In this document: piece by piece, positions 9,641-41,657 of the stretch | Layout of the letters: each line of letters opens with the position of its first letter | Position numbering within the stretch: position 1 is the first letter of the stretch | Assembly (NCBI RefSeq): GCF_016405985.1 | Contig: NZ_JAEFCF010000044.1 | Location: forward strand, 1 to 45,282 | Direction of reading: 5' to 3' | Length of the DNA stretch: 45,282 nt | From: Paracoccus sp. IB05 | Lineage (GTDB): Bacteria > Pseudomonadota > Alphaproteobacteria > Rhodobacterales > Rhodobacteraceae | Program-made: the position numbers and the translations under genes | The notes under the pieces: model-generated | What the model saw: the letters and a program-made list of their open reading frames with translations, nothing else | The model's database searches: none | What the model was told of the DNA's origin: nothing

Positions 9641-10491
9641 GGTCATGTTGACAAAAGGGATTCACACCGAGCCTGGAGCGTGATTCAAGCTGGTATCTGC
9701 GATGGAGACCAGCTTGGCACGAGACCTGATGTCGGACGAGGAGTGGGCGTTCTTTGAACGGTTTATCCTGGCGGTCCGTGCGCCGAACGGGCGCAAACCG
9801 ACCAACCACCGCCTTGTTCTTGATGGGATTTTCTGGATCGCTCGCACCGGTGCCCCATGGCGGGACCTGCCTGAGGAGTTTGGCAAATGGTCGAGCGTCT
9901 ACCGGCAGTTCCGACGCTGGACGCTGGCAGGTCTCTGGGAGGACATCATGGACGCCCTGAACCAAAGCGGGGCAGCGCCGGATGCCCTCCAAATGGTCGA
10001 CAGCACCGTGGTTCGCGCCCATCATCAGGCAGCGGGCGCAAAAGGGGGACTCCGCGACAGGGTTTTGGCCGCTCAAGAGGTGGCTTCACGACCAAGATCC
10101 ACCTCCGCGTCAATGCAGCAGGCCTGCCCATGAGGACCGAGATCACGCCGGGCCAGACATCCGACTACCTGGGGTTTGATCTGGTCATGGTCGACAACCT
10201 GCCTGAGCCGAGCGTCCTGTTGGCCGACAGAGGCTATGACGCTGACAGCATTCGGGAAAAGATGGAGGTGCGTCACGTGCTCACCCAAATTCCCATGCGA
10301 AAATCACGTAAGATGCGCGTCGGCGTGGATCATTCGCTGTATTCGTTGCGCAACCTCGTCGAGCGGTGCTTCAACAAGCTCAAGAACGCACGAAGGGTCG
10401 CAACCCGCTACGACAAGACCGCCCAGAGCTTCCTCGGCTTCATCGACATCACCTCGATCCGTCTATGGATACGCCATTTGTCAACATGACC
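9641..10491 (+). mobile_element. IS5-family (IS427-like) insertion sequence
   Basis: An 851-bp element with perfect 15-bp terminal inverted repeats: GGTCATGTTGACAAA at 9641-9655 and its complement at 10477-10491. TA flanks both sides (9639-9640 and 10492-10493) within CTAG contexts, in line with the short TA-containing target duplications of the IS427 group. It holds a two-frame transposase. Its left end is also the left end of the 32-kb insertion. Confidence 0.88.
9702..10489 (+). CDS. IS5-family transposase (two frames, -1 frameshift)
   Basis: DDE transposase encoded in two overlapping frames, as is normal for the IS427 group. The first frame (9702-10133) begins METSLARDLMSDEEW and carries the first catalytic aspartate in MVDSTVVRAH. 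The second frame ends at 10489 and carries the second aspartate in LLADRGYDAD and the glutamate in LVERCFNKLK. The slippery run AAAAGGGGG at 10040-10048 lies just where protein similarity passes from one frame to the other (GAKG to GTPRQGFGRSRGGF), so a programmed -1 shift would give one protein of about 262 residues. All three catalytic residues and both terminal repeats are intact, so the element may be active. Confidence 0.85.
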
Positions 10492-10570
10492 TAGAGAGCC
10501 CTCGCAGACCATCGCGCGCGCATGCTATATAAGGTATCCAGGTACGCTCTGACAAAACCCTTGGGTAAAA

Positions 10571-10592
10571 TGTAAAATAGCCGTATTTTGCA
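10571..10592. promoter_or_regulatory. Near-palindromic operator candidate
   Basis: Arms TGTAAAATA and TATTTTGCA around GCCG form an inverted repeat with one mismatched position per arm, ending three bases before the ATG at 10596. The position would overlap the ribosome-binding region, so a bound repressor or a folded mRNA could block expression. The downstream gene has a helix-turn-helix end, so autoregulation would be natural, but that gene is now frameshifted. Confidence 0.5.
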
Positions 10593-10595
10593 CAT

Positions 10596-11651
10596 ATGAA
10601 GCCTCAAGCACCTGCCTTCCATGATGAATCTGATACTTTCTCCCTCGACGGTCAGGAGGTGGAACGGGCGTCCGAGGACGATCTTTGGTTCCTGCCCGGT
10701 CCGATGGGCGACGAGCCGGATTACCTGCTGCCCGGACCACGGGCTGAACCGCGTGAAACCGAGGTGCTCGACGATTGGCGGAAAGCAGAGGGGGGTCAGC
10801 CGCGCGTCTTGCTCGAGTGGCCGGTCGCGTCGGCGCGCTGGACGACCGGCTGAAGCGCGGCCCGGAAGGATGGCGGCACAGGCTTGCCCTGATCGAAGCG
10901 GCAGACCTCAGCTGGGTTGTGGGTGACCGCATTTGCCCAGATCGGCTGGCGCTTTGGATATCCATGCGCTTGTCCGGCGTGCAGGACGACACCGCGGCGC
11001 TCGCGCGTGTCGGTTGGGCAGTGCGGCGGCTGACGGGTGGACCGGGGCCGGAGCAGGACCTGTCCGCTTTCCTAGACCGTCGTGACCCCGAGAACCTAAG
11101 TGATGAGATCGAGCCGTTCGTGGATCGTGCGAGCGGCTGGCTGGATTTGATGGGGCAAGCCGCAGACCTGCACTCGATCACCCGCGCCGCTATGGGCTTT
11201 CACCTATGGGGCCTAGCGGGGCTCGGGCAGCACGGTGACCAGATGGAAGCGGCTGTCGCGGCGGCACGGATCGCCGCCTGCGAGGGGAGAGGAGCAGTTT
11301 TCGCGCCTCTGGCCATGGGCGGAGCAGGGGGGTTACGCGCCGGCGGTTCACCGTTTGACCGTCTGGCGCGTTGGCTCGATGGCATGTGTGACTGCGATGC
11401 GGCAGCTTGACGATATCGAAGCGTGGTCAGTGCGGGCGGAGGCCGAGATGGCATCGCTCTCGGGCAGGACGCCCCCGGCCTTGCGCGCGGTGCTGACCGA
11501 ATGGCCGCTCGTCTCCGCCCCGATGGCCGCGGCCCTGACCGGCGCCAGCCGCGCCGCCGTCCAGCGCAACCTTGCATGGATGCAAGCGCGGGGTCTGATC
11601 CGCGAGGTGACAGGACAGGGGCGGTTCAGAATGTGGAGGGCCACGCACTAA
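10596..11651 (+). pseudogene. Frameshifted helix-turn-helix protein (DUF1403/DUF1612-like)
   Basis: One gene read in three successive frames. Residues from 10596 run to about 10790 (DDLWFLPGPMGDEP, LDDWRKAE). The protein then continues in the next frame from a G6 run at 10790-10795 (SAARLARVAGRVGALDD to LARWLDGM near 11385), and finally in a third frame from a TGTG repeat near 11385-11393 (CVTAMRQLDDIEAWS to the end). The last 60 residues resemble a winged helix (PLVSAPMAAALTGASRAAVQ, then GLIREVTGQGRFRMW), as seen in plasmid proteins of the DUF1403 or DUF1612 groups; I am not sure which. Both breaks lie in slippage-prone tracts, so natural decay and sequencing error both remain possible. It sits between the IS5-type element and the second parDE pair. 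Confidence 0.7.
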
Positions 11652-11668
11652 CCGCGCAGATCGGGTCG

Positions 11669-11968
11669 TCAGCCGTCCGGGAAGAGCATCGTCTCGACGT
11701 CCATAGCACCATTCAATATGTGCAAAATCGTGATCTGGTCAGCGCCGACTCGGTAAAAGATCAAATACCGGCCATGCACACTGCGACGGATGCCGTGATG
11801 CTCGTAGCGGGGCACCACCGGCCAGGCTTGTGGCATTTCGGCTATGTTGAGACACAGCTGGTAGAGTTCGCGCACGAAGCTCAGCGCCCGTGCGGGATTG
11901 CCGCGGGCAATGTAGTCACCGATCGACTCAAGATCCGCCTCGGCCTCGGCCGTGATCAGGACCTTCAT
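11669..11968 (-). CDS. parE: ParE-type toxin, second copy
   Basis: Ninety-nine residues, colinear with the ParE at 426-725 without gaps and about two thirds identical. The hairpin AEADLESIGDYIARGNPARA and the core RSVHGRYLIFYRV are kept, so the fold and probably the target are the same. The differences cluster at about 36-47 and 73-81, which may be where antitoxin discrimination lies. It overlaps the antitoxin gene by four bases (ATGA, 11965-11968). Being inside the 32-kb insert, it would help retain the insert even if the backbone copy were lost. Confidence 0.9.
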   Translation of the reverse strand: MKVLITAEAEADLESIGDYIARGNPARALSFVRELYQLCLNIAEMPQAWPVVPRYEHHGIRRSVHGRYLIFYRVGADQITILHILNGAMDVETMLFPDG

Positions 11969-12222
11969 TCCGTGGGCCGACCCGCACCTTGATACCTGAG
12001 CTCGAGGCGCGCGACGACATCAGCCAGCGGCTTGGTCCGTTTTGCATCTTCATCATCAATGCCTCGCGCCAAAGCCTGATCGAGCACGGTCAGTCTAGCC
12101 TCGCGTTCCTGAACCAGGCGGATCCCTTCCCGAAGAACCTCGCTCTTCGAATTGTACCGGCCGGTCTCGACGAGCTTCGTGACGAAGTTCTCCAACTGAT
12201 GCCCGAGGTCTGCGCTGATCAT
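11965..12222 (-). CDS. parD: ParD-type antitoxin, second copy
   Basis: Eighty-five residues starting MISADLG like the first copy. The ribbon-helix-helix region differs at only a few positions up to about residue 50 (for example T8H, S12N, A15T), while the tail after residue 55 is clearly different (DDEDAKRTKPLADVVARLE). Near-identical DNA-binding halves and identical operator arms imply that each antitoxin could repress both promoters, whereas the diverged tails could keep toxin binding specific. An AGGA-containing stretch lies just before the ATG. Confidence 0.9.
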   Translation of the reverse strand: MISADLGHQLENFVTKLVETGRYNSKSEVLREGIRLVQEREARLTVLDQALARGIDDEDAKRTKPLADVVARLELRYQGAGRPTE

Positions 12223-12260
12223 GTGGGACGTCCTCCTGTATCAGGACGAACTTAGCGATC

Positions 12261-12277
12261 TTGATAATAGTTATCAA
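12261..12277. promoter_or_regulatory. Palindromic operator of the second parDE pair
   Basis: TTGATAA-N3-TTATCAA, identical in both arms to the site at 118-134; only the three central bases differ. It lies 38 bp upstream of the second parD start, against 37 bp for the first pair. Confidence 0.75.
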
Positions 12278-12623
12278 GTAGTGGGCAAGTGATGGTGGGT
12301 TTTGGTCGATTACCAACCAAGTTCCGGAGGCCAAACTGGTTCGCACCGACTGCCGATCAGTTCGACAATCAGGCTGCTTGGGCGCAGGCCCTTGAGAGCA
12401 CTTTGGATGATCGTTCGACGACGCGAAGGCACGGGCAGATCACTGTGCAGCATGGTGAGAGAACACCTCTGTGCCACCGTCGCCCAGGATGAGCGCTTCA
12501 TTGCAGGCTGGCCGGTTTCTGGTCTTGGGCCGGGGGTGTCGGTCTGCGAATGTACCACAGCTACCACGCTGGATTCACCAAATGAATTGCTCACAGGACC
12601 TGTGCAAAAGAACTTACCAGCAC
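12278..12623. other. Region without a recognisable gene
   Basis: About 350 bases between the second parDE pair and the exporter ATPase gene. Several short frames are open on both strands, but none has a credible start or a motif I know. It could be debris from an earlier rearrangement joining two blocks of the insert. Confidence 0.5.
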
Positions 12624-13328
12624 TCATTGCTTTCCGGAATCTGACACGATGCGCCCATCCTCCAGAGTCAGGATCCGGTCCGCGCGGTCGAGGATCCTGG
12701 GATCGTGGGTCACAAGCAGTGTTGTTGTGCCGCGCGCCGCGCCTAACCGCTTGAGGAGGTCCACCACATCGGCGGCACTGTCCTTGTCCAACGCAGCGGT
12801 CGGTTCATCTGCCAGCACAAGCGCCGGGTTTCCGACCAGCGCACGCGCCACGGCCACCCGCTGCTTCTGGCCGCCGGACAGGTTCGCGGGCAAGTAATCC
12901 ATCCGGTCGGACAGCCCGACCAGACCAAGCGCGCGCGCCGCTGCCTTTTGTGCGATGTCATCCGGCACGCCGGGGCGCACCTGTGCCCCCATGACGACAT
13001 TTTGCGCGGCGGTCAGGCTTTCATGTAGGTTATGAGCCTGAAAGATGAAGCCGAGTTGCTGACGCTGCCGCGTAAGTTCGTCCGCGCCTGCGCCCAGCAA
13101 TTCGCGGCCAAGCAACCGCACGGAGCCGTCCTGCACGGCCCGCAGGCACCCGACCAGCGTCAGCAGCGTGGTCTTGCCCGAACCCGACGGGCCCATCAGC
13201 ACCGTGAAACTGCCGCGCGGCAGGCTGAGGGTGATGTCGAACATGGCCTGTTTGCGGGCGTCACCCGTTCCGAACCAGTGGTTGAGTTCCTTTACCGCAA
13301 CGATGGGCGCATCTGTCATTGTCTTCAC
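12624..13328 (-). CDS. DevA/MacB-type ABC transporter ATP-binding protein
   Basis: A 234-residue cytoplasmic ATPase of the DevA/LolD/MacB group, which power export of lipids, peptides or small molecules through a periplasmic adaptor rather than import. Walker A GPSGSGKT (46-53), Q-loop FIFQAHNLHESL (from about 95), signature LSGGQ (150-154) and Walker B LADEPT (172-177) with the following D181 are all present, so it should be active. It is the last gene of the minus-strand cluster, three bases after the permease stop. Together with the next two genes it forms a DevBCA-like tripartite exporter; an outer-membrane TolC partner is not encoded here. The substrate is unknown. Confidence 0.92.
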   Translation of the reverse strand: MKTMTDAPIVAVKELNHWFGTGDARKQAMFDITLSLPRGSFTVLMGPSGSGKTTLLTLVGCLRAVQDGSVRLLGRELLGAGADELTRQRQQLGFIFQAHNLHESLTAAQNVVMGAQVRPGVPDDIAQKAAARALGLVGLSDRMDYLPANLSGGQKQRVAVARALVGNPALVLADEPTAALDKDSAADVVDLLKRLGAARGTTTLLVTHDPRILDRADRILTLEDGRIVSDSGKQ

Positions 13329-13331
13329 CTT

Positions 13332-14504
13332 TCAGAACAGGTCGGCGGGATCAGCCGCGGCAAGCCGCCGGGTTGCAATCACCCCCGACAGCGCCGAAAA
13401 GACGACCGTTCCCACGAAAACGGTCACAGCCATGCCCGGCGTCATCAGCAAGGGCAACGTCGTGACCTTGGCCATCAGCGTCAGGATCGCGGTGCCGATC
13501 GCAAGCCCTGGAAGAAAGCCCAACAGGCCCAGCACCAGCGCTTCCTCCAGCACGATGCCCAGAAAGAAGCGCGGGCCATAGCCCATTGCCTTGAAGGTCG
13601 CGTATTCGCGCATGTGGTCTGCCACGTCTGCCGACAGCACCTGATAGACGATCACCAGCCCCACCAGCACACCGATCAACACACCAAAGCCGAAGATCAC
13701 GCCGGTCGGGCGCTGGGTCTGCTGATAGTGCAGATCCTCTTGGGCGGCATCGGCATAGCTGCGTACACGCAGGGTCTTGTCCGAGATCACGCCGCGCAAC
13801 CGCGCCACGGTTGCGGTGACATCTGCGCCGGGGCGCAGGCGCAGCAGGATGTGGTCGGGCGCGGCGGAGGTTCGCGAAGGGAACAGCGACAAAAAGGTCT
13901 GATCCGACACCAGCATGAATCCGTCGCCGCCAAAGCCGCCGCCACCTGCAAAAGTGGACATGGCGGTCAGCGTGCGCCCGAGGGTTTCAAACCGCAGCGG
14001 CGTTTGCGGGCGGATCGCGGCGGCCTCGTCCGCAGGCAGGCCGCGTGCCAGCCGGTCAAGGATAGCCACGCCCTGCACCTGCAACAGATGCAGGCCGTCC
14101 GACACGGTCGGCGCAAGAAAGGCGGGTCGGGCCGGGTCGATCCCGAATGTGGTGAAGACAATCTCGTTGCCGCCCCGGTCCCAGGGCACATTCCCCACGA
14201 ACAGGCCCATCCCTTCGGTCACATCCGGGTCGGCCAAAGCTTGCAACATCCATTGACGCGCGACATTGTTTCCCTCGGCCAGAGCATTCGCATTGCCGGC
14301 CGAGATCATGACATCTGCCTGAAAAAACCCATAGGGTTTGAGCGTCGCCGTCGCCATCGAGTTCATCAGCCCAAGCTGCACGAACACCAGCACATTGGCG
14401 AAAGCCACACCTGCCAGCGCAGCGGCAAAGCGTCCGCGCTTGTGGGTCAGTTGCAGCCAGCCGATGGGAAGTCGCCCGAAGACCCATTGCAAAAGGCGGC
14501 TCAT
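13332..14504 (-). CDS. DevC-type ABC transporter permease (FtsX/MacB fold)
   Basis: A 390-residue permease. It has an N-terminal membrane helix at about 25-48 (FAAALAGVAFANVLVFVQLG), a large periplasmic domain (about 60-270), and three C-terminal helices (VIFGFGVLIGVLVGLVIVYQ, VLGLLGFLPGLAIGTAILTL, GMAVTVFVGTVVFSALSGVI), the arrangement of DevC and MacB. The coupling segment MREYATFKAMGY before the second helix is the usual contact with the ATPase. DevC/MacB proteins act as mechanotransmitters driving substrate from the periplasm outwards. The start overlaps the stop of the adaptor gene by four bases, so the two are translated together. Confidence 0.9.
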   Translation of the reverse strand: MSRLLQWVFGRLPIGWLQLTHKRGRFAAALAGVAFANVLVFVQLGLMNSMATATLKPYGFFQADVMISAGNANALAEGNNVARQWMLQALADPDVTEGMGLFVGNVPWDRGGNEIVFTTFGIDPARPAFLAPTVSDGLHLLQVQGVAILDRLARGLPADEAAAIRPQTPLRFETLGRTLTAMSTFAGGGGFGGDGFMLVSDQTFLSLFPSRTSAAPDHILLRLRPGADVTATVARLRGVISDKTLRVRSYADAAQEDLHYQQTQRPTGVIFGFGVLIGVLVGLVIVYQVLSADVADHMREYATFKAMGYGPRFFLGIVLEEALVLGLLGFLPGLAIGTAILTLMAKVTTLPLLMTPGMAVTVFVGTVVFSALSGVIATRRLAAADPADLF

Positions 14505-15718
14505 GGCGCGACCCGCGCCCGCGCGCCTGTGTCGATGCGGGCGACGGCTTCGAGGTTTGTGTATCGTGCGGCGATGATGGACGACTCGGGTTCCAGCACG
14601 ACCAGCACCCGGATGACGCGCGCATCCGAATTTGCGGCGGCATCGTCCGAGATCAGCCCCTGCCGTCCAACGGTCAGGCCGATGCTGTCCACCGTTCCAC
14701 GCAAGGACCGCCCAAGCGCATCGGCGACAATCTCGACCGGCTGGCCAAGGGCCACCGAGGCGATGCGGTCCTGCCAGATTTCCACTTCGGCCATCATCTG
14801 GCCGGTGTCGCCCATCTCCATGATCCCCTCGGCAGGCGGACGCTGGCCGGGGGTGGCGTGGATATTCAGGATCGTGCCGTCGATGGGGGCGCGCACCTCG
14901 GCCCGGCCAAGGTCCATGCGGGCACGTTCCAGTTCGGCTTCAGCGGCGGCAACATTGCGGGCGGCGACAACAACATCGGGCTGATCGTCAACCGCAAGTG
15001 AGGCAAAGCGTGCCAGCGTCGCCTCGGCCCGGGCGACGGCCTGCGCCGCCTCACTCGCGCGCGATTGCGCAGTATCGAGCGTGGCCGTTGTGGCGACCCC
15101 GCGTTCGCTCAGTGCCTGTGTCCGCTCAAGACTTGCAGCCGCTTCAGCCGCACCGGCGCGGGTCTGGTCAAGCGTCGCCTGCGCTTCGGCACGGCTGGCC
15201 TCGATGGAACTCCGGGTCTGCATCAGCGTCGCCTGCCGCACGGCAAGGTTCGCTTCGGCCTGAAGCACGGCCCCCTCCAGCGCCTGGGCATTGTCCAACC
15301 GTGCCAGCGGATCCCCCCGCGCCACCGTGTCACCGATTGCGACCAGAATCTCGGCCACCCGCGCATCCCCCGCCCCATAAGGTGCTGCAACCACGGCCAC
15401 GTCCCCGCGCGGCATGATCCGCGCCAGTCCCACCACATCGGAGGGCAACAGCGTCTCGGCCAGCTGCACGGGGAGCACGATTTCGGGCGGCAATGCGATC
15501 GGGCTGTTGGAACCGCCACCCGGTTGCAGGCCCGACATTTCGTAGAAACGCTGCAATGCGGGCGGCTGGAAATACATGCCGAGTACCCCGCCCGAGAACA
15601 TCAGCACCGGGATCAGCAGAACCAGCAAATATCTTTTGTGAAACACCTGGCGACGCGGCGGGGGGGCATCGGGACGTTCCAGATCAATGGGCAGGGTGGT
15701 GTCATCAGTCAGGGGCAT
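14501..15718 (-). CDS. DevB/HlyD-type periplasmic adaptor protein
   Basis: A 405-residue membrane-fusion protein. A short cytoplasmic tail is followed by one membrane anchor at about 30-50 (LLVLLIPVLMFSGGVLGMYF). A first lipoyl half follows at about 105-150 (VAEILVAIGDTVARGDPLARLDN), then a long alanine-rich coiled coil (about 155-265), the second lipoyl half (EVRAPIDGTILNIHATPGQ), and a beta-barrel region (MAEVEIWQDRIASVALGQPVEIV). Such adaptors link an inner-membrane exporter to TolC. It follows the cytochrome b561 gene by only 28 bases and overlaps the permease gene, placing the exporter in the same transcript as the thiol-redox genes upstream. Confidence 0.9.
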   Translation of the reverse strand: MPLTDDTTLPIDLERPDAPPPRRQVFHKRYLLVLLIPVLMFSGGVLGMYFQPPALQRFYEMSGLQPGGGSNSPIALPPEIVLPVQLAETLLPSDVVGLARIMPRGDVAVVAAPYGAGDARVAEILVAIGDTVARGDPLARLDNAQALEGAVLQAEANLAVRQATLMQTRSSIEASRAEAQATLDQTRAGAAEAAASLERTQALSERGVATTATLDTAQSRASEAAQAVARAEATLARFASLAVDDQPDVVVAARNVAAAEAELERARMDLGRAEVRAPIDGTILNIHATPGQRPPAEGIMEMGDTGQMMAEVEIWQDRIASVALGQPVEIVADALGRSLRGTVDSIGLTVGRQGLISDDAAANSDARVIRVLVVLEPESSIIAARYTNLEAVARIDTGARARVAP

Positions 15719-15746
15719 GCCCGGTTTCCTTCACTATTCGGCGCCG

Positions 15747-16238
15747 TCAATCAGCCGGGCGGATCATCCGCAGCATCAGATTATTTTTGAGAACAATGCG
15801 GTGGAACAGCACGGCAAGAACGTGCAGCACGATCAGCGCAAGAAGTGCGATCTTCACCACATTATGGGCCTCGGCGCCAGCCGCGATGTCGCCAAACCAT
15901 GCCATCGCACCGGTGACCGCCATGGCAGCAAGCAGCACGTAAAAGCCCCAATGTGCGACATGGCTCAGCGTCTTGAGGGGGGCAGGCTCATTTTCCGGCG
16001 CGGGCGGCACGCCACGGGTCAACCGCAACACGAGGCGCCAAAGCACGAAGGCCAAGATCAGCATACCCCCCGCGACATGGGCAAAAACGAGTGGCGAAAA
16101 GGCAATTTCCTGTCCCTCGGAATAGGCATCCCACGCGGACGAAATTCCGTCCTTGAACATGTATTGCCCCGCCACAAGCACGGCCACAATCCAATGCAGG
16201 CCGATTTGAGTGGCGGAGTATCCGGTTGTCTGTTTCAT
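15747..16238 (-). CDS. Cytochrome b561 family protein
   Basis: A 163-residue four-helix membrane protein of the bacterial CybB type. Histidines that could bind two haems b stand in the expected helices: H15 in IGLHWIVAVLVAG, H54 in FAHVAGGML, H93 and H96 before the third helix, and H139 and H146 in VLHVLAVLFHRIVL. CybB proteins oxidise quinol or pass electrons between the quinone pool and a periplasmic acceptor. The gene overlaps the truncated dsbD-like gene by four bases (ATGA), so the two are translationally coupled. This is unusual and suggests electron transfer between membrane quinones and a periplasmic thiol protein; that link is inference. Confidence 0.88.
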   Translation of the reverse strand: MKQTTGYSATQIGLHWIVAVLVAGQYMFKDGISSAWDAYSEGQEIAFSPLVFAHVAGGMLILAFVLWRLVLRLTRGVPPAPENEPAPLKTLSHVAHWGFYVLLAAMAVTGAMAWFGDIAAGAEAHNVVKIALLALIVLHVLAVLFHRIVLKNNLMLRMIRPAD

Positions 16239-16882
16239 GTGTCCGCCAGCGCGAGTCCGAAACCAAGGAATGCCAGCAGAACCAGTCCTGTGCCACCGCG
16301 CTTGGCAAGGCCCGCCAGCATGCCCTCACCCTTTGCCAGTTCCATCTGCGGTGCGGGGGTCGGCGCCTGTTCCGCAATCTCGCCCGAGCCTGTTGCCCGC
16401 GCGGGATCTTCTATTGCGGAACCGCCCGGCGCTGTCCCCGCCGCTAGTTCCGGCAGGCTCAGGCTGCTGGTGACCGGCGCATAGCAGATCCCATCCTCCT
16501 GACAGCCCTGCCAGGTGATACGCACCTCGCCACCCGCACTGGGCAACAGGATTGAGGCATTGCCGTAATAGACCTCCACCCGGCCAAAGCCCGGATCGTC
16601 CTTGATCCGGCCCGCAGATGTCTCGACCGCAAGGGCCGCGCCATCGGCGGTATGGGCGGCGATCTGATCGCGGTAAAGGTAGTAGCCCTCGGCAATACGC
16701 CAGCCGATGCTTGCCCGGCCATCACTGACCGACAGCACTTCGATGATGAAGGCATCCTCAGGGTCGAGGGGCCGGCTTCCGCCGCCCCCGAAGGTGAAGG
16801 TCTGCGCATGTGCCGGGAACCAGAACACGAGAAGCGCCAGAAGCAGCGCAGCGCAAGAAGGAAGGGAAGGATTGTGTTTCAT
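16235..16882 (-). CDS. DsbD N-terminal domain protein lacking the membrane domain
   Basis: A 215-residue protein with a signal peptide (about 1-26, ending AHA-QT) and the immunoglobulin-like N-terminal domain of DsbD. The redox pair sits in GCQEDGICY (C127 and C133), the spacing of nDsbD. In complete DsbD this domain receives electrons from the CcdA-like membrane domain and passes them to periplasmic partners. Here a linker leads into one hydrophobic segment (TGLVLLAFLGFGLALADT) and the protein stops, just where full-length DsbD would enter the cysteine-proline motif of its first membrane helix. The stop is shared with the start of the cytochrome b561 gene. Either the gene was truncated by rearrangement or it is a domain now anchored by one helix and working with a new electron donor. 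Confidence 0.85.
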   Translation of the reverse strand: MKHNPSLPSCAALLLALLVFWFPAHAQTFTFGGGGSRPLDPEDAFIIEVLSVSDGRASIGWRIAEGYYLYRDQIAAHTADGAALAVETSAGRIKDDPGFGRVEVYYGNASILLPSAGGEVRITWQGCQEDGICYAPVTSSLSLPELAAGTAPGGSAIEDPARATGSGEIAEQAPTPAPQMELAKGEGMLAGLAKRGGTGLVLLAFLGFGLALADT

Positions 16883-26049: not shown

Positions 26050-26062
26050 AGGGCGAGATAGT

Positions 26063-26395: not shown

Positions 26396-26461
26396 TCTTG
26401 TCTCATCGCCTCGCCCGCGCCTGAAAACGCGCGCGACCTGCCATTGCCGAAAGCGGCCCCC

Positions 26462-28700: not shown

Positions 28701-28709
28701 TCCGGAACC

Positions 28710-30265: not shown

Positions 30266-30369
30266 GTTATTGAAAATCCCGATTACGCTTAGTCATATAA
30301 TCAATTTCATATATATGTGTAAACCTACTACCTCTTGGTCATCGCAAACACGAACCCAGAGGTTTCCAG
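30266..30369. promoter_or_regulatory. Divergent promoter region, OxyR-like gene and peroxiredoxin
   Basis: The 104-base gap is strongly AT-rich in a GC-rich setting. It contains GATTA (30281-30285) facing TAATC (30298-30302) and a TATATAT run just after, consistent with a LysR-type site and two facing promoters. Exact boxes cannot be assigned by eye. Confidence 0.5.
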
Positions 30370-31008
30370 ATGACCGACGCCCCCGCCCTGCCGCGGCTGA
30401 ATGAACCGGCCCCCGATTTCGACGCGCCCACCACCCATGGCCGCAAGAAGCTGGCCGATTTCCGCGGGAAATGGCTGGTGCTGTTCTCGCACCCGGCGGA
30501 TTTCACCCCGGTCTGCACCACCGAATTCATCGGCTTCGCAAAATTGCAGGAACAGTTCGCCGCGATCGACACGCAACTGATCGGCCTGTCGATCGACAGC
30601 ACCCACTCGCACATCGCCTGGACGCGCAACATCAAGCAGAATTTCGGCACCGAGATCGGCTTTCCGATCATTGCCGATCTCAGCATGAAGGTCGCCCATG
30701 ACTATGGCATGATCATGCCAGGCGCTTCGGACACGGCTGCGGTGCGGGCCACATTCGTGATCGACCCTGAGGGCGTGCTGCGTGCGATGCTCTACTATCC
30801 GATGAATGCGGGCCGGTCTGTGGCGGAAATCCATCGCCTCGTCGTCGCCCTGCAGACGGCCGACACCAATGCCTGCGCCATGCCCGAAGCCTGGGTACCC
30901 GGCCAGCCGGTCATCGTGCCGCCCCCGAAAACCCCGGAAGAGGCCGAAGCGCGCGCCGCCGAGGGTTACAATACGGTCGACTGGTATTTCTCGACCCGCA
31001 CTCTCTGA
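30370..31008 (+). CDS. Peroxiredoxin, Prx6/1-Cys type
   Basis: A 212-residue thioredoxin-fold peroxidase. The catalytic site PADFTPVC (42-49, peroxidatic C49) with T46 and the later R126 form the usual active-site triad. The C-terminal extension (AMPEAWVPGQPVIVPPP and VDWYFSTRTL) matches the Prx6 group. A second cysteine, C169, lies in TNACAMPEAW, where some archaeal relatives have a resolving residue, so a two-cysteine cycle is possible. It reduces hydrogen peroxide, organic peroxides or perhaps persulfides. It is divergent from the OxyR-like gene and 62 bases before the Blh gene. Confidence 0.9.
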   Translation: MTDAPALPRLNEPAPDFDAPTTHGRKKLADFRGKWLVLFSHPADFTPVCTTEFIGFAKLQEQFAAIDTQLIGLSIDSTHSHIAWTRNIKQNFGTEIGFPIIADLSMKVAHDYGMIMPGASDTAAVRATFVIDPEGVLRAMLYYPMNAGRSVAEIHRLVVALQTADTNACAMPEAWVPGQPVIVPPPKTPEEAEARAAEGYNTVDWYFSTRTL

Positions 31009-32772: not shown

Positions 32773-34461
32773 ATGCCCCGTCAGACCCGAAATGACCATA
32801 TGGCACAGAAGGCAGACCGGCCCGATATAGCGGACCTTTTGCCGACGATGGCCGCGCTGGCATGGCTACCTCAGGCTGCCTTGCTTGCCGTTGCGATTGC
32901 GGCGGTGGCGAAGGGCGCGGCACTGGTGGAGATCGCGGGATTCGCCGCCCTTGCGGCATTTCTCGGTATCTTGCGGGCGCTGATCACCTCCGCCAGTGAG
33001 CGTGCAAGCTTTCTCAGGGCGCGCGAGACGGTGACGGCCCTGCGCAATGCAGCCGTTCTGGCTCTGGCGTCGCGCTCCCCTCTGGATGCCACGCGCACAG
33101 CTTCGGGCGAGGCCGCCAGCATGATCGCCGAACAGGCCGAAAGCATCACGCCATGGCTCGCGCGGTTCGGGCCGACACGCGTCAAGGCGGTCGTCATCCC
33201 TTTGGCGATTTTCCTGACAATCCTGCCGCTCTCCTGGGCGGCAGCGCTGGTCCTTCTGATCGCATTGCCCGTGATCCCGGTCTTCATGGCGCTGATCGGC
33301 TGGCGCGCGCAGGCGGCCAGCAAGGCGCAACTGGTCGAGGTCGGCGCGATGAACGCCTTTCTGCTGGACCGGTTGCGCGGGCTGGCCACGATCCGGGGGC
33401 TGGGCGCGGTTGATCGGGTGGCGGAACGCGTCGGGGAGGAAGCGCAATCCCTGCGGGTCCGCACCATGGCAGTGCTGCGCATCGCCTTCATGACCTCGGC
33501 GGTGCTCGAGCTTTTCGCCGCACTCGGTGTCGCCATGGTCGCGGTCTATGTCGGCTTTCACCTGCTGGGGGACCTGGATTTCGGCGCCTGGGGCGGCAAG
33601 CTCGGGCTGGCGCAGGGCATGTTCATCCTGCTGCTGGCGCCTGCGTTTTTCGAGCCGATGCGCGAATTGTCGGCCATCTGGCATGACAGGGCGGCGGGCC
33701 AGGCGGCGCATGAAAACCTGTTGCGGCTGGCGCAGGAAGGCCACCGGCTGCCCGAGGCCGGCCAAGTCTCCGCTCCGCTTCCCGCAGACAGGCTTGCGAT
33801 CGGCCCGGCGGTTGTTGTCAGGGGCCTGACCTTTGACCACACCGGACCCGACCTCCTTTTCCCGGAGGGGCTGGGCTTTACCGTCAACCACGGCGAACAT
33901 GTCGCCCTTCTCGGGCCCAGCGGGGCTGGCAAGACCACGATCCTGTCGTTGATCGCGGGGCTGGCGATGCCGAAAGCCGGCCGGATCGAGGTTTTCGGGC
34001 AGGAGCTGCGCCCCGAGACCGTCCTGCCCCTGCGCGCGCGGATGGCATGGATCGGGCAGAACCCGCATATCTTCGCCGGATCGCTTGCCGCCAATGTCAC
34101 CCTGGGCCGCAGCGGCATTGATGATGATACCATCGCCCGCGCATTGGCCGCGCTGCGGCTGGACCATGTGGCGCGCGCGCGCGGAAGCGCCCCGATCGGC
34201 GAAGGTGGCGCCGGTCTTTCGGGTGGCGAAGCCCTGCGGCTGGCCCTGGCAAGGATCGCCGTCACGCCGCAGGCGGAGCTGATCCTTGCGGATGAACCCA
34301 CCGCCCACCTTGATCCCGTCACCGCGGGCAAGATCACCGACGCCCTGCTACGGCTTGCGCGGGGGCGTACTCTGATTGTCGCAACCCATGACCCGCGCCT
34401 CGCCGCGCGATTGGATCGCAGCATCCGTCTGGCCCCTCTGGCAGGGAGGGCAGCGGCATGA
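32773..34461 (+). CDS. cydD: Thiol reductant ABC exporter subunit CydD
   Basis: A 562-residue half-transporter of the CydDC exporter, which moves cysteine and glutathione to the periplasm and is needed to assemble cytochrome bd. Six membrane helices fill the first 320 residues, and the ATPase follows: Walker A GPSGAGKT (near 381-388), signature LSGGE (near 482) and Walker B LILADEPTAHLD (near 501-512). The start at 32773 has an AG-rich stretch just upstream; an ATG nine codons later is an alternative. CydD and CydC genes overlap in ATGA. Export of thiols by this pair also suits the thiol-based chemistry of the neighbouring sulfide genes. Confidence 0.92.
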   Translation: MPRQTRNDHMAQKADRPDIADLLPTMAALAWLPQAALLAVAIAAVAKGAALVEIAGFAALAAFLGILRALITSASERASFLRARETVTALRNAAVLALASRSPLDATRTASGEAASMIAEQAESITPWLARFGPTRVKAVVIPLAIFLTILPLSWAAALVLLIALPVIPVFMALIGWRAQAASKAQLVEVGAMNAFLLDRLRGLATIRGLGAVDRVAERVGEEAQSLRVRTMAVLRIAFMTSAVLELFAALGVAMVAVYVGFHLLGDLDFGAWGGKLGLAQGMFILLLAPAFFEPMRELSAIWHDRAAGQAAHENLLRLAQEGHRLPEAGQVSAPLPADRLAIGPAVVVRGLTFDHTGPDLLFPEGLGFTVNHGEHVALLGPSGAGKTTILSLIAGLAMPKAGRIEVFGQELRPETVLPLRARMAWIGQNPHIFAGSLAANVTLGRSGIDDDTIARALAALRLDHVARARGSAPIGEGGAGLSGGEALRLALARIAVTPQAELILADEPTAHLDPVTAGKITDALLRLARGRTLIVATHDPRLAARLDRSIRLAPLAGRAAA

Positions 34462-36146
34462 AGCGCGTCCTGAATGATTTCCGGCCCTTCCTTGGCCTGT
34501 TCTGCGCGAGTACCGGCCGGAAACTGCTGGGAGGTGCCGCGCTGGCCGCCCTGACCGGGCTGATGGGCATGGCGCTTCTGGGCCTGTCGGGCTGGTTCAT
34601 CACCGCGACCGCGCTTGCGGGGCTGGTGCCCGCCACGGCCAGGGCCTTCGATGTCTTCATGCCCTCGGCAGCGATCCGGCTCTTTGCGCTTGGCCGCACG
34701 GCGGCGCGCTATGGCGAAAGGCTGGTGACCCATGATGCAACGCTCGGCCTGCTGGCCGCGTTGCGCGGGCGGCTCTTTCGCGGCTGGTCGGCGCCGGGCG
34801 CGGCAAGGGCACTGGCGATGCGCCCGGCCCGCCTGCTGTTTCGGCTGACCGCCGATGTCGATGCGCTCGATACTGTTTATCTGCGCGTGCTGGTGCCGCT
34901 TGGCACCACCCTCGTGGCGACGCTGGCTGCGGGGATCGCGCTGGCCTTCATCAGCCCGGCTCTGGGGGTCGCGGTCTTTGCGGTGCTGATGCTGACCGGA
35001 ACTTTCGTCGCGGGGATCACTGCGCGCAGCGCCACCCCCGCAACCCTGCGCCGCGCCGCCCGGATCGAGACCTTGCGCGCGCGCGTCATCGACCTTGCCA
35101 GCGGCCAGACCGACCTGCTGATGGCGGGACGGATCCCTGCGCAAAGGGCCGCGCTGGCAGAGGTGGACGCAAGGCTTGCCGCCGACGACCACCGCCTCAA
35201 CCGGATCGAGGCTCGGGCAGGTCTGGCCCATGGCCTGCTTGCGGCGGTGTTGCCTGCGCTGGTGCTGGTGGCGGCGGCAGCAATCGCCGCCGGGGAGCAT
35301 ATCGGCGCACCGGGTGTCGCGCTTGCCCTCCTCATCACCATGGCCGCAACCGAGCCTTTTGCCGCCCTGCGGCGCGGCGCGCTGGATTTTGCGCGCGCCC
35401 GTCTTGCCGCAAGACGCACCGGGCCTGCGCTACTCTGCGCCGCCTTTCCTGTCAGCGCCGAACCCGCCCCCGGTCTCGCAGCGGAATTGCATCACGTCAC
35501 GCTGCGCCACGATGCGGCCCTTGCGCCGATCCTGCGGGATCTGTCGCTTTCGGTCCGGGAGGGCGAGCATATCGCGCTGATCGGGCCAAGCGGTGTCGGC
35601 AAGACCAGCGTGATCCAGTGCCTTGCCGGTGATCTGCCGCCCACGGCGGGAAGCGTCCGCGTCACCGCCACTGCGCGGCTGACACAGCGCACCGAACTGT
35701 TCCGTGACGGCCTGCGCGAAAATCTTCGCCTCGGCGCCCCCATGGCAAGCGACGCGCAGATGATGGCCGTTCTGGCGCAGGCCGGGCTGGAAAGCATCAT
35801 CCATGCGCTCCCTAGTGGCCTCGACACAGAACTCGGCGATGGCGGCCAGGGTCTGTCGGGGGGACAGGCGCGGCGGCTGGCCCTTGCCCGGCTGATGCTG
35901 CGCGATGTGCCGCTCTGGCTTCTGGACGAGCCGACCGAGGGGCTGGACGGAGAGACCGCCCGCGATGTTCTGGCCCGGCTGCGCCATGCCGCAGGCAATC
36001 GCGCCACGATCACCGCCACCCATATCCGACGCGAAGCGGAAGATGCCGACCGCCTGCTGATCCTGGGGGATGGCGGGATCAAGGCCAGCCATATCCGGGG
36101 CAGCCCGGGATTTGAGGCCGCATTGAACGACCTGCGCCCTGACTGA
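34458..36146 (+). CDS. cydC: Thiol reductant ABC exporter subunit CydC
   Basis: A 562-residue partner of CydD. The membrane part begins FRPFLGLFCAST and contains GLSGWFITATALAG, a conserved CydC run in the first helices. The ATPase has Walker A GPSGVGKT (near 375-382), signature LSGGQARRLALARL (from about 465) and Walker B LLDEPTEGLDG (near 490). In E. coli CydDC the CydC subunit binds a haem that stimulates ATP turnover. The gene starts inside the cydD stop codon and is followed after 55 bases by cydA. Confidence 0.92.
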   Translation: MKRVLNDFRPFLGLFCASTGRKLLGGAALAALTGLMGMALLGLSGWFITATALAGLVPATARAFDVFMPSAAIRLFALGRTAARYGERLVTHDATLGLLAALRGRLFRGWSAPGAARALAMRPARLLFRLTADVDALDTVYLRVLVPLGTTLVATLAAGIALAFISPALGVAVFAVLMLTGTFVAGITARSATPATLRRAARIETLRARVIDLASGQTDLLMAGRIPAQRAALAEVDARLAADDHRLNRIEARAGLAHGLLAAVLPALVLVAAAAIAAGEHIGAPGVALALLITMAATEPFAALRRGALDFARARLAARRTGPALLCAAFPVSAEPAPGLAAELHHVTLRHDAALAPILRDLSLSVREGEHIALIGPSGVGKTSVIQCLAGDLPPTAGSVRVTATARLTQRTELFRDGLRENLRLGAPMASDAQMMAVLAQAGLESIIHALPSGLDTELGDGGQGLSGGQARRLALARLMLRDVPLWLLDEPTEGLDGETARDVLARLRHAAGNRATITATHIRREAEDADRLLILGDGGIKASHIRGSPGFEAALNDLRPD

Positions 36147-36201
36147 ACCGCCCATCATGGGCAAAACAGCTCCATCCACCCGCAGACGCAAAGGCAGCAA
36201 G

Positions 36202-37779
36202 ATGGAATTCGACGTTGTAACCCTGTCGCGGCTTCAGTTCGCTTTGACCGCGCTTTACCATTTTCTCTTCGTGCCCCTCACTCTTGGCCTTTCCGTGCTG
36301 CTGGCGGCGATGGAGACAGTCTATGTGATGACGGGCCGCCCGATCTGGCGCCAGATGACCAAATTCTGGGGCACATTGTTCGGGATCAATTTCGTGCTGG
36401 GCGTCGCCACCGGCATCGTGATGGAATTCCAGTTCGGCATGAACTGGAGCTATTACAGCCATTATGTCGGCGATATCTTCGGCGCGCCGCTCGCCATCGA
36501 AGGGCTGATGGCCTTCTTCCTTGAGGCCACCTTCGTCGGGCTGTTCTTTTTCGGCTGGGACAAGATGTCGAAGGTCGGGCATCTCTTCGCCACCTATGCC
36601 GTGGCGATCGGCTCGAACTTCTCTGCCTTGTGGATCCTGATCGCCAATGGCTGGATGCAGCATCCGGTGGGCGCGACATTCAACCCCGACACCATGCGGA
36701 TGGAAGTGACCGATTTCTTCGAGGTGCTCTTCAACCCGGTCGCCCAGGCCCGCTTTGTCCATACCGTCTCGGCGGGCTATCTGACCGCCTCGGTCTTCGT
36801 TCTGGGCGTCTCGGCCTGGTATCTGCTGAAGGGTCGGCACATCGCCATCGCCAAACGCTCGATGACCATCGCGGCCTCGTTCGGCCTGCTGGCCTCGGTC
36901 TCGGTCGTGGTTCTGGGGGATGAGGGCGGCTATCTGGCCTCGGAACACCAGAAGATGAAACTCGCCGCCATCGAGGGCATGTGGAATACCGAGCCGGCGC
37001 CGGCCTCCTTCACCCTGTTCGGCATTCCCGACATGGAGGAGCGCACGACCCATTATGCGGTCCACATCCCCTGGGTCATGGGACTGATCGGGACCCGTTC
37101 GCTGACGACCGAAATCCCCGGCATCGAGGAGTTGGAAGCCCATGCCGAAACCCGGATCCGCAACGGCATCCTTGCCTATGATGCGCTGCAGGATTACCGG
37201 GCCGCGCCCTCGCGCGAGGCAGTGCCTCCCGAGGCCGTCACGGCCTTCGACGAACACGGCCACGATCTCGGCTATGCGCTGCTTTTGACGAAGTATGTCG
37301 AGGATCCGCGCGAGGCGACTGAGGCGCAGATCAAGGCCGCAGCGTGGGATACGGTGCCGCATGTTCCGACGCTGTTCTGGTCCTTCCGCCTCATGGTCGC
37401 GATCGGCTTCTTCAACGTCGCGTTGATGGGCTTTTTCGTGGTGCTTTCGGCGCGCCGCAAGCTGGGCGTCAGCCGCTGGCCGCTGAAGATCGCGGTGGCC
37501 TCGCTGGCGCTGCCATGGATCGCCGCCGAACTCGGCTGGATCACCGCCGAATTCGGGCGCCAACCCTGGGCGGTCGAGGGCGTTCTGCCCACGGTCGCCG
37601 CTGTTTCCGAACTGACCGTGCCGACCCTCTGGCTGACGATCATCGGCTTCACGCTGATCTATTCGGTGCTGATCGTGATCGAGGTCCGGCTGATGCTGGA
37701 GGCGATCCGCAAGGGGCCGCAGCCCGATCACGACCCGGAAATGCCCCTTGCCCCCAAACCCCTTGTTGCAGCGGAGTGA
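36202..37779 (+). CDS. cydA: Cytochrome bd ubiquinol oxidase subunit I
   Basis: A 525-residue membrane subunit, close to the 522 of E. coli CydA. The haem b595 ligand H20, the haem b558 ligands H187 and M398, and the proton-path glutamates E100 and E108 stand in place, and GRQPW (452-456) is the family signature. The periplasmic quinol loop after about 247 (SEHQKMKLAAIEGMW) is present. The oxidase reduces oxygen to water with high affinity and, unlike haem-copper oxidases, tolerates sulfide. The frame is open from 36157, but the ATG at 36202 gives the normal N-terminus. Confidence 0.95.
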   Translation: MEFDVVTLSRLQFALTALYHFLFVPLTLGLSVLLAAMETVYVMTGRPIWRQMTKFWGTLFGINFVLGVATGIVMEFQFGMNWSYYSHYVGDIFGAPLAIEGLMAFFLEATFVGLFFFGWDKMSKVGHLFATYAVAIGSNFSALWILIANGWMQHPVGATFNPDTMRMEVTDFFEVLFNPVAQARFVHTVSAGYLTASVFVLGVSAWYLLKGRHIAIAKRSMTIAASFGLLASVSVVVLGDEGGYLASEHQKMKLAAIEGMWNTEPAPASFTLFGIPDMEERTTHYAVHIPWVMGLIGTRSLTTEIPGIEELEAHAETRIRNGILAYDALQDYRAAPSREAVPPEAVTAFDEHGHDLGYALLLTKYVEDPREATEAQIKAAAWDTVPHVPTLFWSFRLMVAIGFFNVALMGFFVVLSARRKLGVSRWPLKIAVASLALPWIAAELGWITAEFGRQPWAVEGVLPTVAAVSELTVPTLWLTIIGFTLIYSVLIVIEVRLMLEAIRKGPQPDHDPEMPLAPKPLVAAE

Positions 37780-37783
37780 CGCC

Positions 37784-38935
37784 ATGATCCTGCATGAACT
37801 CATCGACTACGGCACGTTGCGCGTCATCTGGTGGCTGCTGCTCGGCGTATTGCTGATCGGCTTTGCCGTGATGGACGGCTTCGACCTTGGGGTGGGGATG
37901 CTTTTGCCCTTCGCCGGCAAGACCGATATGGAACGGCGCATCGTCATCAACACCATCGGCCCGGTCTGGGAGGGCAACCAGGTCTGGCTGATCCTCGGCG
38001 GCGGGGCGATCTTTGCCGCCTGGCCGCCGCTTTATGCGGTCAGTTTCTCGGGCTTCTACCTTGCGATGTTTGCTATCCTCGCCGCGCTGATCCTGCGCCC
38101 GGTCGGGTTCAAGTATCGCTCGAAACGCGAAGGCGCACGCTGGCGGAGGAACTGGGACTGGGCGCTGTTCGTAGGTGGCTTCGTCCCGGCGCTGATCTTC
38201 GGTGTCGCTGTCGGCAATGTGCTGCAAGGGGTGCCGTTCCGGCTCGGCTCCGACCTGCGGATCTTCTATGACGGCAGCTTCTTCGGCCTCCTGAACCCCT
38301 TCGCGCTGCTGTGCGGCCTGTTGTCGGTCGCCATGCTGGCGATGCACGGGGCGAACTGGCTGGTGCTGAAATCCTCGGGGCCGGTTGCGGCACGGGCGCG
38401 GTCCTTCGCCCGGATCGCGGCCCTTGCCACCATCGGGCTCTATGCACTTGGCGGGTTGGCCCTTTGGCTCTTTGTCGATGGTTACCGCATCACCAGCGTG
38501 ATCGACCCGTCCGGCCCGTCCAACCCGCTGGCAAAAACCGTCGAGACCTCGGCAGGCGGCTGGTTTGCGAACTACGCCACCCATCCCTGGATGCTGCTGG
38601 CCCCCGCCCTTGGCTTCGTCGGCGCGCTTCTGGTGTTGTGGGGGCTGCGCTCGGGACGCGAGATCGGAACGCTGTTGTTCTCGAAGCTTTCGATCTTCGG
38701 GATCATCTCGTCGGTCGGGCTGTCGATGTTTCCGTTCATCCTGCCCTCGACAGTGCAGCCCGGGGCCAGCCTGACGGTCTGGGACGCATCCTCCAGCCAT
38801 CTGACGCTCTTCATCATGCTCTTTGTCACCGTAATCTTCTTGCCTCTGATCGCCGCCTACACGGCCTGGGCCTACAAACTGCTCTGGGGCAAGGTCGAGG
38901 AAGACGACATCACAGGTGGCGGTCACGCCTACTGA
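37784..38935 (+). CDS. cydB: Cytochrome bd ubiquinol oxidase subunit II
   Basis: A 383-residue subunit with eight to nine membrane helices. The family runs FAVMDGFDLGVGMLLPF and INTIGPVWEGNQVWLILGGGAIFAAWP are intact, the latter carrying conserved glycine and tryptophan residues at the CydA interface. GGAG at 37772-37775 supports the start, four bases after the cydA stop. CydB is structurally similar to CydA but binds no haem in most enzymes. Confidence 0.95.
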   Translation: MILHELIDYGTLRVIWWLLLGVLLIGFAVMDGFDLGVGMLLPFAGKTDMERRIVINTIGPVWEGNQVWLILGGGAIFAAWPPLYAVSFSGFYLAMFAILAALILRPVGFKYRSKREGARWRRNWDWALFVGGFVPALIFGVAVGNVLQGVPFRLGSDLRIFYDGSFFGLLNPFALLCGLLSVAMLAMHGANWLVLKSSGPVAARARSFARIAALATIGLYALGGLALWLFVDGYRITSVIDPSGPSNPLAKTVETSAGGWFANYATHPWMLLAPALGFVGALLVLWGLRSGREIGTLLFSKLSIFGIISSVGLSMFPFILPSTVQPGASLTVWDASSSHLTLFIMLFVTVIFLPLIAAYTAWAYKLLWGKVEEDDITGGGHAY

Positions 38936-39343: not shown

Positions 39344-40273
39344 ATGGGTAAGCTAAACGATAAAGTTGTCGTGGTGACGGGCTCGGTCTCTGCGATCCCG
39401 GGATATGATTCCATTGGATCGGCAACCATTCGCGAAGCTCTGGCAGAAGGGGCTGCGGGAGTCGTCATCTCCGATATCAACGACGAACTGGGCGAAGCCT
39501 TCGCGAAAAGCCTGAACGAACAACATGGCACCGGACGGGCTCTTTATGTCCATACAGATGTAAGAGACCCGAAGGATGTCGAAAAGCTGTTCGATATCAC
39601 CGAAAAGACCTATGGCCGCGTCGATGCTGTTATGGCCAATGCCGGGGTGGCAACGGCCGAGGACTTCGACAAGGATCCGGAAGCTGTCCTGAAATCCCGT
39701 AAGTTCATTCAAAGCATTAATGAGGACGGAGTTTTCCACACCGCCCTCTACGGTTCGCGTCTGATGATCAAGCACGGGACGAAAGGCTCCATCGTGCTGG
39801 TATCCAGTATTCACGGTGTCGTCGGTCGCCCCAAGGTCGTGAACCCGGACACGGGCGATGTGCTAATCGATCGCTTCAACTTGATTCAATACACGATGGG
39901 CAAGCATGGCGTCGTCGGCCTGTCCAAGGCCTTGGCTCTTCAACTGGCGGAATATGGCATTCGCGTTAATACGGTGAACCCGGGCTATATCATGACTCCC
40001 CTGTTTCAGGCTGCGGTCAATGCCGATAAGGGCGAGTTGGCAAAAGAGAAGACGCTGGCAACAGATGCTTTCGACTTCACCCAACTGGCGGCACTGCACC
40101 CGCTCTGCAACGACCCGGTAGAACAGGCCGATATCGTTCCACGGGGCAAGTTTGGTGGTCGCATGGGCGTTCCTGTCGAAATTGCCAAGCCCGCAGTCTT
40201 CCTGATGTCGGACGAATCTTCCTTTGTTACAGGCCAGAAGCTTGTAATTGACGGGGGGTATACGGCAGGCTGA
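39344..40273 (+). CDS. Short-chain dehydrogenase/reductase, atypical cofactor motif
   Basis: A 309-residue SDR. NAG (99-101), the serine of VLVSS (154-155), Y183 and K187 in QYTMGKHG, and the closing NPGYIMTPL are all in place, so it should be an active NAD(P)-linked oxidoreductase. The glycine-rich motif is unusual: TGSVSAIPGYDSIG instead of TGxxxGxG, with extra residues before the last glycine. A long loop at 215-265 with HPLCND may form the substrate lid. AGGAG lies ten bases before the ATG. Its base composition is lower in GC than the cyd genes, which suggests a different source. The substrate is unknown. Confidence 0.85.
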   Translation: MGKLNDKVVVVTGSVSAIPGYDSIGSATIREALAEGAAGVVISDINDELGEAFAKSLNEQHGTGRALYVHTDVRDPKDVEKLFDITEKTYGRVDAVMANAGVATAEDFDKDPEAVLKSRKFIQSINEDGVFHTALYGSRLMIKHGTKGSIVLVSSIHGVVGRPKVVNPDTGDVLIDRFNLIQYTMGKHGVVGLSKALALQLAEYGIRVNTVNPGYIMTPLFQAAVNADKGELAKEKTLATDAFDFTQLAALHPLCNDPVEQADIVPRGKFGGRMGVPVEIAKPAVFLMSDESSFVTGQKLVIDGGYTAG

Positions 40274-40647
40274 GATCGCCTTGTGGGAGGCTCCCACACT
40301 GGCTCGCTGCATCGCCGGGGTCGAAGTCGCCTTCGCCCGGGTGCGCGCGCTGGTGACCGAACATCTGAGATGACCATGTCCCCCGGCACGACCGCTGTCA
40401 CCGCAGGTCGGGCGAGCTTACTCGTGCCGGGGTTCTCATGGTCACGCGCGGCTTCATCGGGGCCTTCCTGCCACTGATGTCGACCACGATCTTCCTGATC
40501 CTTGCCACAGGCTGCTTTGCTCAGTCGGGTATCTGGAATGCCATCACAAGGTGATCAAACCGGCAAACCCTGCCAACGACAATACATGATTAATCACAAC
40601 TATTTGAAAATATTGCGCCCTGGGACACAGCCCTCTTAAGCTTCGCT
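40274..40647 (+). other. Gene debris next to the IS481-type element
   Basis: No complete gene. One short frame reads LARCIAGVEVAFARVRALVTEHLR and stops near 40372. Another from 40438 reads MVTRGFIGAFLPLMSTTIFL and stops near 40555, looking like a lone membrane segment. These may be the ends of genes cut by rearrangement; I cannot name them. Confidence 0.4.
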
Positions 40648-41612
40648 TAGGTGTTTAGTCCCGGCATCTGGTGGATCGGATTTACGATGAATCGATCTGG
40701 CTCTGATGTCCAGATTTTGCAGATGTATTCGTAGGGCGTGAGGCCGTTCAGGGTCTTGAGCCTGCGCGCGAAGTTGTAGGCGGACATGAAGTCCTTAAGA
40801 TGCGTCCGCAGTTGATCATGGCTGTCGTAGTGGAAGCGTTTGACGGTGGCCTCCTTGATCGTGCGGTTCATCCGTTCGACCTAGCCATTGGTCCAGGGGT
40901 GTTTCACCTTGGTCAGCCGGTGATCAATGTCGTGTTCACGGCATACGCGCCCGAAGATGTGCTCGAAAGCGCTGGTATCGACGCTGCGATTTGCGAACTG
41001 CACTCCATTGTCGGTTAACACCTTGTGGATCGGGTATGGCGCAGCTGCGATCAGGTCGCGCAGAAACTGGGCTGCAGCCATCTTCCCTGCCTTTTGGACG
41101 AGGCGAATGAAGGCAAACTTGCTGGTTCTGTCAATCGCGACAAAGAGATAGAGCTTCCCTTCGGCGGTCTGCATCTCGGCAATATCGATGTGAAAGAAGC
41201 CGATAGGATAGCGCTTGAACGTCGACCGTTTCGGTTTGTCGCCATCCACTTCGGGCAGTCGAGAGATGCCGTGGCGCTGAAGGCACCGATGCAGCGCTGA
41301 GCGTGTCAGGTGCGGGATGGACGGCTGCAGGGCATAAAGGCAGTCGTCCAGCGGTAGCAGTGTATGGCGCCGAAAAGCAACGACGGCCGCCTCCTCGGCC
41401 TCCGTCAGGATCGTCGAACGCGGCTCCGACGGCCCGGTCTTCATATCCTCGACCGTCGCGCGCTTGCGCCACTTCGCAACGGTCTTGGGATTGATACCCA
41501 GCTCACGGCTCAACTGCGCGAGCGAAGCTTGCGATCGCTGTATTGCTGCTCTGACGGCGTGCGTGGTCGTGGCGCTGCCATGACGAATTTGTCCCATAGG
41601 GCATCCTTCCAT
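40647..41612 (-). pseudogene. IS481-family transposase with an in-frame amber stop
   Basis: A 321-codon frame with a helix-turn-helix (SLAQLSRELGINPKTVAKWR) and an rve-type DDE core: first aspartate in FFHIDIAE, second in VLTDNGVQF, glutamate in VERMNRTIKE. A TAG at 40881-40883 stands where relatives have NGQVER, so a single C-to-T change of CAG explains it. It stops translation two codons before the catalytic glutamate; the rest of the frame to 40647 is intact. The element is therefore probably immobile unless the codon is suppressed, which suggests the 32-kb block is now fixed at this end. Confidence 0.85.
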
Positions 41613-41657
41613 TCCAGAGAAAGGATCGCACCATCAAACCGTGGGATCAAACACCTA
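40648..41657 (-). mobile_element. IS481-family insertion sequence
   Basis: About 1.01 kb with imperfect terminal repeats: TAGGTGTTTAGTCCC at the left and, on the complementary strand, TAGGTGTTTGATCCC at the right. It carries one transposase gene broken by a stop codon. Its right end is also the right end of the 32-kb insertion. The outermost two or three bases could be target sequence instead of element, since the TTAGG and CCTAA flanks also pair. Confidence 0.75.

Follow-up and report, generated by a model that had tools for sequence, protein, structure and literature searches.

The window analyzed here is a stretch of 45,282 nucleotides from Paracoccus sp. IB05 (contig NZ_JAEFCF010000044.1, positions 1–45,282 of the forward strand). 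It carries a gene predicted to encode a 658-residue GHKL ATPase, which is split in two by a large insert. Base-level comparison shows the insert to be a 32,015-bp unit at positions 9641–41655 with TA on either side, bordered at the left by an insertion sequence (IS) of the IS5 type and at the right by one of the IS481 type. The interruption is confirmed as real, base-resolved and IS-mediated, and two unrelated ISs abut one and the same TA of the gene. This arrangement probably arose by stepwise IS activity, which would have broken the plasmid gene at a single TA and left a 30-kb sulfide/bd-oxidase block between the two elements. The parts of the interrupted locus are as follows.

8804–9640, plus strand: 5′ part of the split gene, residues 1–279, with the predicted GHKL ATPase domain (HATPase_c, E 4.7e-6) and the start of the middle domain; unbroken at the join in a second genome of the genus (G002)
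9639–9640, no strand: left TA target repeat, from the empty-site comparison
9641–10491, plus strand: IS5-family (IS427-type) element, 851 bp, with ends GGTC...GACC, two overlapping transposase frames and DDE_Tnp_1
10492–40649, no strand: cargo of the island, enclosed by the two ISs; both inner edges are known elsewhere without an IS
40650–41655, minus strand: IS481-family element, 1006 bp, with ends GGTGTT...AACACC and a transposase frame containing an in-frame TAG
41656–41657, no strand: right TA target repeat, from the empty-site comparison
41658–42797, plus strand: 3′ part of the split gene, residues 280–658, with the remaining middle domain, a coiled region and a PD-(D/E)xK-type C-terminus

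A preliminary description of the window had proposed one gene cut by a 32-kb sulfide and respiration island. Both halves are found where it had placed them, on the same strand; the 5′ half encodes 279 residues and the 3′ half 379 residues followed by a stop codon. The encoded protein now consists of two fragments and is presumably inactive.

The N-terminal half was searched against 13 genomes of the genus, the window's own among them. A near-identical copy is present in one other genome, G002 (contig C8, locus L004), and the DNA there is unbroken across the predicted join: GGTCTAAAGGCT. At the join itself, ...GTAATAGGTCTA is followed directly by AAGGCTATCGAC... without a gap. In the left half 836 of 837 bases are identical and the sole change, at position 9121, is synonymous. 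Beyond the join, on its right, the next 240 bases are all identical; the final three visible bases ahead of a masked run then all differ. The join predicted in the preliminary description therefore occurs naturally, and this uninterrupted relative agrees with it base for base. The empty site holds a single TA, and the target repeat surrounds the whole unit.

The G002 copy is the empty site for this insertion and is not a whole or working gene. Its C-terminal half, searched by position, lies in three pieces on contig C8: residues 1–81 of that half at 33440–33682 (plus strand), residues 121–222 at 35753–36055 (plus strand) and residues 218–379 at 30366–30851 (minus strand). An intact gene in G002 is ruled out by this scatter over three places. 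In the genus the split gene is known from two members (the window, and G002:C8:30366-36055), and it is disrupted differently in each.

Intact relatives are found elsewhere. The C-terminal half matches 54 plasmid records, four of them at 90%–95% identity, and the two of these four that were opened both encode 658 residues in a single frame. The homologue set also comprised 12 loci from named genomes, with L114 and L120 left out of the reading; five close loci among them have 658 residues and the same junction residues. Thus 7/7 close relatives examined have the full 658 residues and read VIGLKAID across the join. Plasmids of Thioclava and Phaeobacter are among those that carry an intact homologue. 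Both halves also share one frame in five distant relatives (27%–32% identical), one of which is archaeal. It had been suggested that the reconstruction would fall if the N- and C-terminal parts belonged to different families. They do not, since they are joined in a single frame, as one protein, in the seven close and the five distant relatives.

The split gene encodes a GHKL ATPase with a PD-(D/E)xK-type, nuclease-like motif at the predicted C-terminus, and the layout is similar to that of GHKL-Shedu defence proteins. VcSduA, as described in the available part of PMC12137116, likewise has an N-terminal GHKL ATPase, a middle domain and a C-terminal PD-(D/E)xK motif, and the succession of a GHKL N-terminus and a PD-(D/E)xK motif found in VcSduA is present in the split gene. 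Its relatives differ from VcSduA and Shedu (SduA) in that no match to the DUF4263 nuclease domain was obtained in 8/8 relatives scanned with Pfam at E up to 1, although a remote relation is possible as the HMMER filters drop weak matches. PADLOC contains no Shedu model. A fold search is uninformative on the C-terminal domain, because good coverage was limited to residues 3–372 and pLDDT drops under 50 at some points beyond residue 400. The split gene is a probable defence gene. A distant relative of it (30%–36% identical) is present in one long frame in the same genome (G000:C70; L002, L005).

The borders of the insert can be placed more exactly than before. Removal of 9641–41657 had been reported to restore a 658-codon frame. 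The resulting join exists in G002, but the exact unit is 9641–41655 flanked by TA. Restoration of the frame is itself unsurprising, since it follows from every clean insertion in which no target is lost. Similarly, CTA had been noted at both outer junctions; the shared repeat is the 2-bp TA, and the C is derived from the gene at the left and from the IS481 terminus at the right. The border elements do come from two different IS families, as had been observed, and the insertion history is indeed more complex than that of a simple composite transposon.

The inner edges of the island are each known without the IS. The right inner edge in G003, a genome of another species, lacks IS481 and reads ...GCT-TA-ATCC, while the window reads ...GCT-TA- followed by the IS481 element. 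The left inner edge is present without IS5 in Paracoccus sp. SCSIO 75233 p2, where the adjoining module is 81% identical, and reads GAT-TA-GAGAG. Each IS thus has native island DNA on its inner side and the gene on its outer side, and the outer ends of both meet the same TA. It is because the inner flanks of both elements are native island sequence that the two can be said to abut one TA.

The left element resembles the IS427 group of the IS5 family. It is 851 bp long and shows the two overlapping frames, the GG...CC terminal repeats and the 2-bp TA repeat of that group, the repeat being of the length found in most Paracoccus IS427 elements; the available part of PMC3281130 lists 2-bp repeats for 9/10 of these and 4 bp for one. 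It is unlike the usual IS427 element in that its two TA flanks stem from different places, the gene and the island. An identical fragment of this IS5 is located at the start of a contig in G002 (G002:C5:1-131, L106), beside a sequence with a relationship to the strawberry-notch-type gene found in the window.

The right element resembles the IS481 family in its integrase-core transposase (an rve_2 match, and an rve_3 match below cut-off, on the C-terminal part) and its TGT...ACA-type core ends. The transposase frame is open apart from the in-frame TAG, at ...PWTNG*VERMN.... The target repeat of the family is 6 bp for the majority, with a range of 2–15 bp (PMC10045372, in the part available). 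The right element is unlike most of the family in that, judged against G003, a shared target repeat can be no more than TA and not 6 bp. A simple IS481 insertion with a 6-bp repeat was rejected: the left and right 6-mers differ, and the G003 edge allows only TA to be shared on the left.

Copies of both elements in related genomes have GG...CC ends in common. TA is found on both sides in 19 of 23 full-length IS5-type copies and in 9 of 14 full-length IS481-type copies, the window's own included. From the empty site, the TA at the outer borders and the native island DNA at the inner borders, all observed directly, we infer an order of events. Both elements insert mostly at Y-TA-R and duplicate the TA. 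Since their ends are GG...CC, each insertion recreates C-TA-R at its own edge, and a second element can therefore stack on, or trim back to, the same TA. In the favoured order an IS481-type copy would first have entered the gene at C-TA-A. An island with an IS481 copy at its right and an IS5 copy at its left would then have joined the IS481 in the gene, either by recombination or as a composite transposon. Finally the IS5 would have moved to the left gene/IS481 edge, a C-TA-G site, with deletion of what lay between. The mirror order with IS5 first is possible. Entry of IS481 first at the C-TA-A of the gene is weakly favoured, because among full-length copies with TA on both sides an A follows the TA in 2/9 of the IS481 type (both T-TA-A) and 0/19 of the IS5 type.

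Natural edge-to-edge stacks, IS5-TA-IS481 with one shared TA, are found in two of 394 genomes of the bacterial family (L121 and L122, in two other genera), and the reversed control pattern in 0/394. The stack at L122 has a full-length IS5 adjoining an IS481 end. Stacking of IS5 on IS5 was considered as a common event and rejected, as it was seen in one genome of the 394, with a mismatch in the TA.

Several points weigh against a stepwise origin. The stacks are rare; two genomes have the IS5-IS481 form and just one the IS5-IS5 form, where the single mismatch falls in the TA itself. Neither form of intermediate, the gene interrupted by a single IS or the island bounded by both ISs at another site, was found in the searches of 13 genomes from the genus and of family samples of 198 genomes. 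TA is not on both sides in 4/23 IS5-type and 5/14 IS481-type full-length copies. Of the two IS481 T-TA-A sites, one belongs to the window itself, and when partial copies are counted an A follows the TA in 1/29 IS5-type right flanks. The gene copy in G002 is broken at other points, thus it serves as a reference for the site and not for a working gene. Lastly, the stepwise route needs more steps than a one-step transposition.

Such a single transposition would have paired the left end of IS5 with the right end of IS481, by the action of one or both transposases, and inserted the 32,015-bp block in the gene while duplicating TA. It involves the fewest events, and the scar is exactly the one expected: one unit, TA on both sides, no target loss and native flanks inside. 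However the outer ends of the two elements agree at only 7/25 positions, compared with 19/25 between the terminal repeats of the IS5-type element and 17/25 between those of the IS481-type, and the transposase frame of the IS481 is now interrupted by a stop codon. We know of no precedent for one transposase that pairs ends of the IS5 and IS481 families. A single-step origin is therefore unlikely. It is doubtful, more broadly, whether elements of the IS5/IS427 and IS481 types, alike in their GG...CC termini and their TA targets, can work together as opposite ends of a single mobile unit, and whether the 32-kb block moved in this way in one transposition.

An artifact of assembly would require that the gene holds an IS5-IS481 stack, that the island lies elsewhere between the same elements, and that the assembler swapped them. 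The draft assembly comprises 108 contigs, the window being one of them, and repeat-type elements stand at both borders, which is in line with such a chimera. Collapsed copies should then appear as they do in G002, where an identical IS5 fragment opens a contig. This is not so in the window's own genome: its other matches are 72%–76% (IS5) and 78%–83% (IS481) identical, and neither a near-identical second copy nor a fragment at a contig end was found there. A chimera is very unlikely. A reversible, programmed interruption, in which precise excision of the island makes the gene whole again, is hardly credible and was set aside together with any idea of a break designed for reversal: the frame would be regained on removal, as seen from the empty site, but this is automatic with any clean insertion, the border repeat is just 2 bp, the IS481 transposase has its in-frame stop, and no site-specific recombinase was detected among the 38 island open reading frames scanned (a chosen set; Pfam, E up to 0.001).

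The same Pfam scan, with matches to NCBIfam and annotations taken from plasmid pAMI8, gives the following predicted content of the island.

10492–11664, plus strand: left module, related to a 355-amino-acid protein with a weak helix-turn-helix match; appears broken, with no open reading frame of that length in the window
11669–12222, minus strand: putative ParDE-type toxin-antitoxin pair
12624–15718, minus strand: putative DevABC-type ABC exporter with ATPase, FtsX permease and HlyD-type adaptor
16631–40649, no strand: 24-kb sulfide/respiration block, 96.5% identical in G003:C29, where it has no IS481 at the right edge
20841–22178, minus strand: sulfide:quinone reductase-like flavoprotein (NF049943, E 5.8e-60, 203 bits, under the cut-off of 525)
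25165–28198, plus strand: MBL-fold protein, BLH-phosphatase-like sulfurtransferase and SulP permease, by pAMI8 annotation
32773–38935, plus strand: two ABC transporter genes (cydD and cydC by pAMI8 homology) with cydA and cydB for a cytochrome bd oxidase, by pAMI8 annotation

The MBL-fold protein is presumably persulfide dioxygenase-like. DsrE, OsmC and rhodanese proteins and regulators are also predicted in the island, and the cargo would fit a role in detoxifying sulfide together with an oxidase of the bd type. In Paracoccus sp. SCSIO 75233 p2 the 355-residue relative of the left module adjoins a resolvase gene; no such resolvase is present among the open reading frames of the window that were scanned. 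Four matches of 70% to the left module are located in G002:C5. A second ParDE-type module is found on the plasmid backbone at window positions 172–725, with about 70% DNA likeness to the one in the island.

The island appears to be a mosaic, as its left 6 kb (10492–16630) has no counterpart in the G003:C29 sequence compared. The flanks of the window at 3–8446 and 42938–45189 are 88%–93% identical to pAMI8 (NC_022050) of Paracoccus aminophilus. This plasmid, with its related backbone, also has a homologous sulfide/cytochrome bd block (NC_022050.1, 120000–148000; 72%–80% identity). In pAMI8, however, the block is at another plasmid site, and other cargo is present where the window has the GHKL gene. 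The comparison suggests separate acquisitions of the two blocks, so that such blocks would have been acquired at a minimum of two places in related plasmids. Neither "sulfide" nor "cytochrome bd" appears in the available part of the main text of the pAMI8 genome paper (PMC3925955).

The unit in the window is comparable to a composite transposon in having IS-bounded cargo and a target repeat around the whole. It differs in that the bounding elements belong to different families and are not two copies of one IS, in keeping with the 7/25 agreement of their outer ends. Within Paracoccus, the available part of PMC3281130 describes transposable modules (TMos), in which adjacent DNA is moved by IS1380-family elements, and its reference 20 names in the title a mosaic element of two IS families, IS1380 and ISAs1. 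IS-driven movement of neighbouring DNA in the same order of bacteria is common to these and to the window. Here, however, it is IS5/IS427 and IS481 types that bound a 30-kb block, and not IS1380 with or without ISAs1.

The locus represents a base-resolved case of two unrelated ISs that end on one dinucleotide around a single cargo, for which a natural empty site is available and the inner edges are known elsewhere. A simple rule is suggested by it: insertion regenerates the target site at the edge of the inserted element. Other islands whose IS borders do not match could be explained by this rule. On the plasmid, a putative block for sulfide detoxification and respiration has come to lie within a probable defence gene, which is broken in a different way in the one relative in the genus that has it.

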